From Ligilactobacillus cholophilus (lineage in GTDB: Bacteria > Bacillota > Bacilli > Lactobacillales > Lactobacillaceae), in contig NZ_CP127832.1 of NCBI RefSeq assembly GCF_030389495.1, positions 620,001 to 684,000 of the forward strand: a stretch of 64,000 bases of DNA. Direction: 5' to 3'. The first letter of the stretch is position 1, and each line of letters begins with the position of its first letter. The position numbers and the translations under genes were made by a program. Of this stretch, positions 25,392-28,746 are shown piece after piece. A model generated the notes under the pieces. That model worked only from the letters and a program-made list of their open reading frames with translations, made no database searches and had not been told where the DNA came from.

Positions 25392-27164
25392 TTATTCATC
25401 GTCCTTTACATCTTCCACATCAATATGCAAATCTTCAAGTTGTTTTTCAGCAACAATACTTGGTGCATGTGTCAAAGGTTCAGTAGCTTTTGAATTTTTA
25501 GGAAATGCAATTACTTCACGAATGTTATCTTTCTTTGATAAAAGCATTGCAAAACGATCTAATCCAAGTGCCAAACCACCATGTGGTGGGAATCCATAAT
25601 CTAATGCATCCATAAACCAACCAAATTGTTCTTCTGCTTTTTCTTTAGTAAAGCCTAATGCCTTAAACATGTCTTCTTGAATATCACGTTGATGGATACG
25701 AATTGATCCACCACCTAATTCATATCCATTTAAAACAATATCATAACTTTGTGCATGACATTTATGTGGGTCTGTCTTCAATAACTCTAAGTCTTCTTCA
25801 TTTGGCATTGTAAATGGATGATGAGCTGCAATATATTGTTGGAATTCTTCACTATATTCAAATAATGGCCAGTCTACTACCCAAACAAATGCAAATTGAT
25901 TTTCATCAATCATATTTTGTTCCTTGGCAATTTCTTTTCGCAAATAGCCAAGTGAATCTGCTACTACTTTTCGTGTAGAAGCAACAAACAAAATTAAGTC
26001 ACCAATTTTAGCATTTGCTGCTTCTAAAATTTGTTTTTCACGATCTTTAAAGAATTTTGCAATTGGTCCAGCAAGGCCATCATCTGTAACTTTCATCCAT
26101 GCTAATCCCTTTGCACCAAATCGTTTAATGTACTCTTGTTTTGCATCAATTTGCTTACGAGAATATTTTTCAGCACCATTTGGAACAGTAATCGCCTTAA
26201 CTTGTCCACCATTTTCTAATGTGCTATCGAAAACCTTAAATCCAGATTCTTTAACTGCACTTCCCATATCTTGCAATTCCATATCAAAACGAATGTCTGG
26301 TTTATCTGAACCAAATCGATCCATTGCTTCATCCCATGTGATACGTTGAATTGGTGTTTGAATTTCAATTCCTAAAGTATCCTTCATGACTGCCTTTAAT
26401 AAACCTTCTGTCATTTCAATAATTTCATCTTGATCCATGAATGATGTTTCAATATCAATTTGAGTAAATTCAGGTTGTCGATCTCCTCGCAAATCTTCGT
26501 CACGGAAACAACGAGCAATTTGATAATATCTATCAAAGCCAGCACCCATCAATAGTTGCTTAAATAATTGTGGGGATTGTGGTAATGCATAAAAATGTCC
26601 AGGATATACTCTTGAAGGAACTAAATAATCACGAGCCCCCTCAGGTGTAGACCGTGTCAAATATGGTGTTTCAATATTCATAAAGTGATTTTCATCTAAA
26701 TAACGATGTACTGTCTGCGTTATACGATTTCGAATCATTAATGACTTTTGCATTTCTGGTCGACGTAGATCTAAATAACGATATTTTAATCGCATTTCAT
26801 CAGTTGCATTTGTATTATTTACAATTTCAAAAGGAGTTAATTTAGCCTTATTCAAAATTTTAACATCGCTAACTTCAACTTCAATTTTTCCAGTTTTCAT
26901 ATTTGGGTTAATTGCATTTTCATTACGTGCAACAACTTTTCCTACTACTTCAATAACATATTCACTTCGTAATGAATCTGCAATTTTCAATGCTTCCGGA
27001 CCAAATTCTTGACTAAATACTAATTGAACAATTCCTTCACGATCACGTAAATCAATAAAAATTAAATTCCCTAAATTTCTGCGCTTTTGAACCCAACCTT
27101 TAAGTACAATCTCTTTTCCTAGATAACTCTCATCTACAAGTCCAGCATATGTTGTTCTTCTCAA
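25392..27164 (-). CDS. aspS: Aspartyl-tRNA synthetase
   Basis: Class II synthetase, 590 residues from a TTG at 27164, 8 nt after GGAGG. An upstream in-frame TTG at 27179 overlaps that ribosome site. The chosen start gives [12 protein letters not shown], matching other bacterial AspRS N-termini. Visible parts: N-terminal OB anticodon-binding domain ([11 protein letters not shown]), motif 2 [18 protein letters not shown], the bacterial insertion domain, and motif 3 [12 protein letters not shown]. Whether it is discriminating (no Asn-tRNA activity) cannot be told. Second gene of the T-box-controlled operon, 17 nt after hisS. Confidence 0.97.
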
Positions 27165-27181
27165 CCTATAATCCTCCAAAA

Positions 27182-28459
27182 CTACTTTATAACATTTTCA
27201 AAGTTATTTAATATATCATCTAAGTTTACTGAATTTTCTTGTCCACTTGCCATATCTTTAATATTAGCTTTATTCTCTGCAATTTCACGTTCACCAATAG
27301 TAATTGTATATTTAGCCGCTAAACGACTTGCTGTTTTAAATTGCCCCTTTGGTTTTCGATTTAAATAATCTCGATCAGCAGAGAAGCCTTGTTGGCGTAA
27401 TGCTTGAACAATTTCTAATGATTTAGCGTTTGTTTCATTTCCAATGCCAACAACATAAACATCTAAGTCATCATCAAGTGGTAATTTATCTTTTTCAGTG
27501 TTTAAAATAAGTAATAAGCGTTCAACACCTAATCCAAAGCCTACACCTGGCGTTGCTGGCCCACCTAATTGTTCTACAAGCCCATTGTAGCGTCCTCCAG
27601 CACATACAGTAGTCCATTTCCCACCAAAAGCTTTTGAATCACTCATTATTTCAAAAATAGTATGATTATAATAATCTAATCCACGTACCATATTTGCATC
27701 AATTTCATATTTAATACCTAGATCATCTAATAATGACTTCACAGTTTCAAAATGTTTTTTTGAATTATCTGTTAAGAAATCTAGTATTGATGGTGCATTT
27801 TCTACAATTTTTTGATCGTTTTCATCTTTACTATCTAAAACACGAAGTGGATTCTTATGCATTCTTTCTTTTGAATCTTCTGAAAGCTGATCTTCAAATG
27901 GTTCCAGATAATCAATTAGCGCTTGTCGATAATTTTGACGAGTTTCAATATCTCCTAATGTATTAATCACTAATTTTAAACTATTAATCTCTACGCTTTT
28001 TAGTAAATCAATTGCCATTGCAATTACTTCCACATCTAAAGTAGGATTATCTACGCCAAATGCTTCTACACCAATTTGATGAAATTCACGTAGCCGACCA
28101 GATTGTGGTCTTTCATAACGGAACATTGGTCCCATATAATATACCTTATATGGCTTTTGATATTCAGGCCCATATAATTTATTTTCTACAAATGAACGAA
28201 CAACACCTGCTGTTCCTTCTGGTCTTAATGTAATGTGACGATCTCCCTTATCATGAAAATCATACATTTCTTTTGTAACAATATCTGAGGTTTCTCCTGA
28301 AGTTCTTGAAAACACTTCAAAATTTTCAAAAATTGGAGTACGCATTTCGTGATAACGATACTTCTTAAATAATTCTCGTGCTTTCTCTTCTACATATTGC
28401 CATTTAGTTGATTCATCAGCTAAAATATCTGCTGTTCCCTTTGGTTTTTGATATTTCAA
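27182..28459 (-). CDS. hisS: Histidyl-tRNA synthetase
   Basis: Class II synthetase, 425 residues, from a TTG at 28459 with AAGGGA about 9 nt upstream. Motif 2 region [15 protein letters not shown] and the histidine A/B motifs ([11 protein letters not shown]-type [28 protein letters not shown]) are present, then the C-terminal anticodon domain ([25 protein letters not shown]). First gene after the T-box leader; aspS follows. Confidence 0.97.
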
Positions 28460-28497
28460 AATTTCAATTCCCTTCTATATTTTATAGTTAAATATAA

Positions 28498-28711
28498 AAC
28501 GCCCTTGATTGGAATATTTTTTCCAATTCAAGGGCGCACTTAGTGTGCACGGTACCACCTTAACTTATTGCTTAGGAATAACGCTCCTCACGGTACTAAT
28601 GTACACCTCAAAAGTGTCTTCATTCTAAAAAATTGTAAGATTCCACCAACCTCTTACTCTCTTAAAAATTTTTTTCGAATTACTAGTCTTTCTCATCGGA
28701 TTTATTTAACT
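28498..28711 (-). promoter_or_regulatory. T-box riboswitch leader of hisS-aspS
   Basis: Stem I contains AGAGAGTA and GGTTGGTGGAA (conserved AG bulge and apical loop) and the specifier loop TGAAGACAC at 28622-28614. The T-box sequence AGGTGGTACCG is at 28560-28550. It is followed by an intrinsic terminator (CGCCCTTGA.. / ..TCAAGGGCG, 28536-28500). The primary specifier, in the usual place after TGAA, is GAC (Asp, 28618-28616) followed by a purine. The overlapping CAC (His, 28616-28614) is two bases further on. The UGGU of the T-box would pair with A or, by wobble, G at the discriminator, which suits tRNA-Asp better than tRNA-His. Confidence 0.93.
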
Positions 28712-28717
28712 AGATAA

Positions 28718-28746
28718 AGTTTACAAAGGATTAAAAATTTAGTCAA
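28718..28746 (-). promoter_or_regulatory. hisS-aspS promoter
   Basis: TTGACT at 28746-28741, 17-nt spacer, TAAACT at 28723-28718. Predicted transcription start near 28711, just upstream of stem I of the T-box. Confidence 0.8.

Follow-up and report, generated by a model that had tools for sequence, protein, structure and literature searches.

Results

The leader upstream of hisS and aspS in the analysed stretch of Ligilactobacillus cholophilus DNA (the window, 64,000 nucleotides of contig NZ_CP127832.1, positions 620,001 to 684,000) in all likelihood acts as an ordinary transcriptional T-box: uncharged tRNA-Asp is the only tRNA that it senses, and in response it turns the hisS-aspS operon on. 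The His codon that overlaps its Asp specifier is very probably incidental, a by-product of the way in which a T-box is built. We base this reading on the parts of the leader, their conservation in relatives, covariation in a helix and gene linkage, all of which can be read from sequence.

The leader and its parts

On the minus strand, the leader reads AATGAA-GAC-AC-TTTTGAG around the specifier, and the TGAA-GAC-AC motif lies at 28614-28622 of the window sequence, reading TGAAGACAC. The sequence-only reading had placed overlapping Asp and His codons (GACAC) here, in front of genes for those two synthetases. The motif is indeed present, within a match to Rfam RF00230, and both genes were recognized by NCBIfam models above their cut-offs. 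The features, in window positions, are the following:

28527..28705, minus strand: T-box leader, stem I to antiterminator (Rfam RF00230, 102.9 bits, E 1.4e-21, model positions 1-219 of 219)
28616..28618, minus strand: specifier codon GAC (Asp), in the canonical register after TGAA (from the sequence and from conservation in relatives)
28614..28616, minus strand: overlapping CAC register, made of the last specifier base, a generic A and the first helix base; very probably incidental
28688..28692, minus strand: helix below the specifier loop, 5' strand GAAAG (pairs with CUUUU in the minimum-energy fold, where stem I has z +1.1, which is weak support by itself; in relatives, the corresponding pair shows covariation)
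28610..28614, minus strand: helix below the specifier loop, 3' strand CUUUU (minimum-energy fold and covariation)
28554..28557, minus strand: T-box UGGU, predicted from the sequence to meet the tRNA NCCA end; its U can pair with G73 of tRNA-Asp but not with C73 of tRNA-His
28490..28537, minus strand: intrinsic terminator hairpin and U-rich tail (28480-28545 folded, -25.1 kcal/mol, z -6.9)
28718..28746, minus strand: possible leader promoter TTGACT-17-TAAACT (consensus scan, 9/12 matches)
27182..28459, minus strand: hisS, histidine--tRNA ligase (NCBIfam TIGR00442, 516.6 bits)
25392..27179, minus strand: aspS, aspartate--tRNA ligase (NCBIfam TIGR00459, 798 bits)

The leader passes the RF00230 gathering score of 93 and thus belongs to the T-box family. 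Its specifier matches the downstream aspS, UGGU can meet G73 of tRNA-Asp through a U-G wobble, and a strong competing hairpin, which a stricter simple pattern scan did not list as a terminator, stands between the T-box and hisS. G28688 faces C28614 and the minimum-energy fold forms that pair; the entire stem I, however, is no more stable than its shuffles, and energy alone gives it no support. For the promoter, it should be considered that the scan gave 2 sites in the region, where 2.5 would be expected from shuffles, and is thus no evidence when taken alone. The genome (1.59 Mb) yielded 12 T-boxes, and the closest named HisS proteins among the matches listed, at 88-89% identity, are from Ligilactobacillus aviarius and relatives.

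In the proposed mechanism, low aspartyl-tRNA would leave uncharged tRNA-Asp to be bound by the leader, and the hisS-aspS operon would be turned on. The GAC specifier would pair with the GUC anticodon of tRNA-Asp and UGGU would meet its GCCA end, upon which the antiterminator would replace the terminator; tRNA binding and the direction of regulation are what we infer from these parts. The overlapping CAC would be the last specifier base followed by an A and a helix-closing C that are common after T-box specifiers, and hisS would be a passenger of the aspS regulator.

Conservation of the two registers

We considered 198 regions upstream of hisS, from 80 relatives found by a HisS search and, for the rest, mainly from genomes drawn from the order and from the class outside the order. 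A T-box motif was present in 174 of these regions and absent in 24, and 171 leaders were assigned; the three others are L089, L127 (incomplete) and L225 (hisS away from aspS). The assigned set includes the window itself and many close relatives and is redundant; as the leaders are related, counts over them are not independent.

The canonical register holds GAC in 155 leaders and AAC in 16, although the resulting 171 of 171 arises partly by construction, as the assignment script sought GAC or AAC and preferred GAC, and some specifier anchors were placed by hand. A codon-blind helix search, which found no helix in 33 of 174 leaders, returned a codon for 141: GAC for 95 of them, AAC for 8, CGC for 10 and CAC for 3. 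Only 103 of the 141 readings match the assignment. On the background T-boxes described below, the search returned mostly fitting codons (GTA 27, CAC 13, TCC 6, CTC 5; n=70). By the next two bases, the GAC leaders divide into GAC-AC (94), GAC-AT (24), GAC-GC (18), GAC-AA (5), GAC-AG (4) and the rarer GAC-CT (4), GAC-CC (3), GAC-GA (2) and GAC-CA (1), and the AAC leaders into AAC-AC (13), AAC-GC (2) and AAC-AA (1).

Both codons are present in the window and both genes follow, and a T-box of Clostridium acetobutylicum that reportedly binds tRNA-Asn and tRNA-Glu offers a precedent (Saad 2013, as reported in the available text of PMC4052509). One might thus propose a two-codon T-box in which a two-base shift of the loop would let CAC capture tRNA-His, in addition to tRNA-Asp bound at GAC, so that one leader would serve both synthetases. 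We consider this very improbable. In its favor, the second register is CAC in 107 leaders and a His codon (CAC or CAT) in 131 of 171, including CAC in 13 of the 16 AAC leaders; the other 40, however, have an Arg, Gln or Pro codon at this position. The pattern that the sequence-only reading had named as counting against dual sensing, GAC conserved but CAC not, is largely found, yet with Asn codons in place of GAC in 16 leaders, and of the two readings that it had offered, Asp alone with an incidental His register is supported while the sensing of both tRNAs is not.

Divided by subset, a His codon occupies the second register in 54/77 leaders of the HisS-search set, 44/51 of the order draw and 33/43 of the class outside the order. 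Against the 15/23 of the background T-boxes, the order draw may show a slight excess (Fisher p 0.06), which we count neither for nor against dual sensing. With 40 leaders lacking it, this p value and the occurrence of GACAC before a lone aspS (see below), the second codon was not found to be selected beyond the generic loop.

A second alternative is that CAC is the working codon and GAC the incidental one, as the placement before hisS suggests. Indeed, hisS is the first gene, and the hisS-aspS leader of MRSA is labelled a histidine T-box in the accessible part of PMC7927825. Nonetheless, all 11 loci named Lactiplantibacillus in the HisS-search set read GACGC, such that GAC persists where CAC is lost, and together with the linkage and discriminator data below this leaves a His T-box barely credible.

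Some Latilactobacillus leaders are irregular. Two that were counted as GAC-AG (L072, L081) could be read in a different register, and the hisS leader of Latilactobacillus graminis (L089) has neither GAC nor AAC at the specifier site (GAAGCTAC) and no aspS in the flank examined. At L072 4817-6555 (Latilactobacillus fuchuensis), the aspS match is split between frames at residue 420/421, a frameshift or a sequencing error.

The second register and the T-box build

The other T-box of the window, with the Phe specifier TTC, reads TGAA-TTC-AC, with the canonical register and, again, AC after the specifier. Across the genome, CAC is found in the +2 register of the T-boxes of pheS (TTC-AC), leuS (CTC-AC), argS (CGC-AC), tyrS (TAC-AC) and thrS (ACC-AC), and CAT in those of ileS (ATC-AT) and glyQ (GGC-AT); serS (AGC-GA) has neither. 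Thus, 7 of the 8 other T-boxes with a C-ending, non-His specifier carry CAC (5) or CAT (2) in this register, which speaks against the two-codon reading. The remaining T-boxes belong to a second hisS (CAC-GC), valS (probably GTA-GC) and metN (ATG-GG). It should be noted that these specifiers were read by eye, guided by the downstream gene, and that gene names other than hisS and aspS were assigned by inspecting the first residues of the protein encoded downstream, and not by a family search. In other Lactobacillales genomes, 30 of 89 background T-boxes could be assigned with agreement of the gene and 59 were dropped; 23 of the 30 end in C, and it is among these gene-checked specifiers that 15 have CAC or CAT at +2, where two picks of the set (L303, L315) look wrong by eye. 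As an overlapping CAC needs only a C-ending specifier and the common AC, the coincidence of GAC and CAC is a weak one. Annotators should accordingly be cautious, since CAC in this register is nearly automatic when a C-ending specifier precedes AC.

Two of these T-boxes have features of their own. In that of metN (ATG; L002, G000:C1:1398636-1398891), UGGC is followed by AACACG, the usual motif being ACCRCG. The argS match (L006 1427-1673, G000:C1:310595-310841) starts 3 bases past the end of a tRNA-Gly(CCC) gene, and both may thus share one transcript.

The third base of CAC, two positions past the specifier, lies opposite a base immediately 5' to the AGTA motif. In the 152 of 171 leaders in which the helix could be counted, this pair is C-G in 85, T-A in 23 and A-T in 3, and is unpaired in 37. 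Watson-Crick pairs thus amount to 111/152, whereas 2000 shuffles gave 76.6 on average and 95 at most; the partner was chosen from the other pairs only, and the shuffles ignore relatedness. As the third base of CAC covaries with its helix partner, this C is best explained as a helix base, a further point against a second working codon.

Gene linkage

A T-box motif precedes hisS in 170 of 177 regions with an adjoining aspS and in 4 of 21 without, although the latter label depends on how much downstream sequence was examined (L079 stops at a contig end, and in L215, of genome G067, aspS follows 676 bases on). For genomes in which the two genes have parted, we analyzed all 16 of the order draw; four loci of the HisS-search set (L080, L081, L084, L089) were left out. 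In 8 of the 16 (five of genus g18, two of g15, one of g4), with hisS distant or on another contig, aspS has a GAC T-box of its own, reading GAC-AC in 6 and GAC-AT in 2, with UGGU in all 8. In seven of these eight, no T-box motif was found within 650 bases upstream of hisS. The eighth, G064, has both kinds: a CAC T-box with UGGA at hisS, and GACAC with UGGU at aspS. For aspS of the other 8 split genomes, all of genus g8, no T-box motif was found, apart from one distant chance hit in G027. GACAC thus occurs with no hisS downstream, and the T-box goes with aspS, which argues against both alternatives: the two-codon reading would not expect GACAC before aspS in six genomes with hisS far away, nor would a His T-box be expected to stay with aspS once the two genes are separated. 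We rejected both dual sensing and His-only sensing, on conservation, covariation, linkage and the generic AC.

In Lentilactobacillus loci L080 and L084, hisS has neither a T-box motif nor, in the flank examined, an aspS.

Discriminator base

In this genome, tRNA-Asp and tRNA-Asn end in G73 and tRNA-His in C73 (our own reading of the gene ends). The claim of the sequence-only reading that UGGU favors Asp over His thus holds for the genome's own tRNAs, and the mismatch with C73, as well as the U that follows CAC in place of the usual purine, does not fit the two-codon reading. Among the 155 GAC leaders, 140 have T and 15 have C as the variable base of UGGN, and none has A or G. Fifteen CAC-type T-boxes of other genomes differ from the window's leader: CAC sits 0-2 bases past GAA with an A next, and the base is A in 13, G in one and C in one, with no UGGU at all, which disagrees with a His reading of the window's leader. 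As a general rule, however, the pairing argument is weaker than the sequence-only reading assumed, since UGGA, which is unpaired with C73, prevails among these T-boxes; we thus downgraded discriminator pairing as proof, and UGGN is, judging from these sequences, no strict predictor of the sensed tRNA.

The 13 T-boxes with UGGA are L276, L279, L281, L292, L301, L304, L305, L314, L094, L097, L099, L100 and L108, 8 of which precede a metN-ATPase-like gene. tRNA-His has C73 in the three genomes read (G000, G094, G126), even though CAC-type T-boxes mostly have UGGA.

A second hisS with its own T-box

Outside the window, at G000:C1:1533154-1534410, the genome has a second full-length hisS (59% identical). 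Its T-box (L008) scores 82.9 bits, below the RF00230 cut-off, and reads CAC followed by GC, with UGGG. Upstream lie genes for a histidine-histamine antiporter (NF040512, 860 bits) and a pyruvoyl histidine decarboxylase (TIGR00541, 565 bits), and a small ORF of the cluster had no NCBIfam match:

L210 1898-6432 (G000:C1, outside the window): histidine decarboxylase cluster with antiporter, decarboxylase, small ORF, T-box and second hisS

The cluster predicts histamine production. Histidyl-tRNA supply thus appears to have its own sensor here, in the CAC and UGGG T-box of the second hisS. Likewise, the histidine decarboxylase island of Lactobacillus parabuchneri, as described in the available text of PMC5313534, comprises an antiporter, a histidine decarboxylase and a further ORF, and its hisS is preceded by a CAC T-box; the present cluster differs in genus and in gene order.

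Leaders with an Asn codon

The 16 AAC leaders come from 7 families, and CAC is lost in three of them (L143, L252, L260). Six of the 16 have C as the variable base of UGGN, five have T and five have A. Where this base is C, it pairs with G73, which fits Asn and not His. The five UGGA leaders (L157, L158, L162, L249, L253) all belong to family f11 and all read AACAC; in the two f11 genomes read, tRNA-Asn and tRNA-Asp have G73 and tRNA-His C73, and UGGA thus fits none of the three. As UGGA is the prevailing form among CAC-type T-boxes, its union with AACAC would favor a His T-box, and for these five leaders a His reading may apply.

An asnS gene was missing (below cut-off) in 5/16 AAC genomes and in 3/64 GAC genomes (Fisher p 0.007, relatedness ignored). 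In family f5 (n=8), asnS is present in all five GAC genomes and lacking in exactly the three AAC genomes. There are exceptions: G006, G101 and G117 have no asnS yet carry GAC, and asnS is present in 11 AAC genomes. We found asnA in 0/16 AAC and 12/64 GAC genomes, and asnB above cut-off in 57/80 genomes, with no clear link to AAC by eye. According to the accessible part of PMC4206432, a non-discriminating AspRS charges tRNA-Asn in the absence of AsnRS, and in some bacteria does so alongside this enzyme. We tentatively suggest that the hisS-aspS T-box might follow the tRNAs charged by AspRS and not hisS, its specifier having switched from GAC to AAC where a non-discriminating AspRS (with GatCAB) loads tRNA-Asn, so that the aspS leader would sense asparaginyl-tRNA supply. 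The link of AAC to the tRNA range of AspRS is a proposal and tracks asnS loss in part. If confirmed, the AAC leaders would represent a regulatory codon switch tied to this range.

Comparison with known systems

The GACAC motif of hisS-aspS leaders, with Asp as its main reading, has already been published. According to the available text of PMC5313534, hisS-aspS T-boxes are typified by GACAC in the specifier loop, Gutierrez-Preciado 2009 suggested that such leaders respond mainly to aspartyl-tRNA, and the authors themselves argue against a response of a GACAC hisS-aspS leader to tRNA-His. The accessible part of PMC2965389 notes that, in lactobacilli and bacilli, T-boxes precede hisS. In PMC2494555, as far as its text was available, T-boxes before tRNA ligase genes bear the matching codon and second ligases in operons are marked separately; the word hisS is absent from its main text. 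Our literature search, with most subscription journals outside its reach, found no further paper on GACAC and none on an Asn codon in aspS leaders.

The leader described here shares its motif, its operon and the "mainly tRNA-Asp" reading with the bacilli and lactobacilli leaders of Gutierrez-Preciado 2009 (via PMC5313534). Compared with the account in the available text of PMC5313534, nothing of substance differs, although we did not meet the linkage test and the helix covariation there; on the sequences compared here, these tests strengthen the published Asp reading. Gene linkage also helps to settle the annotation of a common T-box that has been labelled both His and Asp in the literature. 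As in the Clostridium acetobutylicum T-box, two overlapping codons share one specifier loop; there, however, both tRNAs are reported to be bound (Saad 2013, via the available text of PMC4052509), whereas in the present case conservation and linkage both speak against the second codon.
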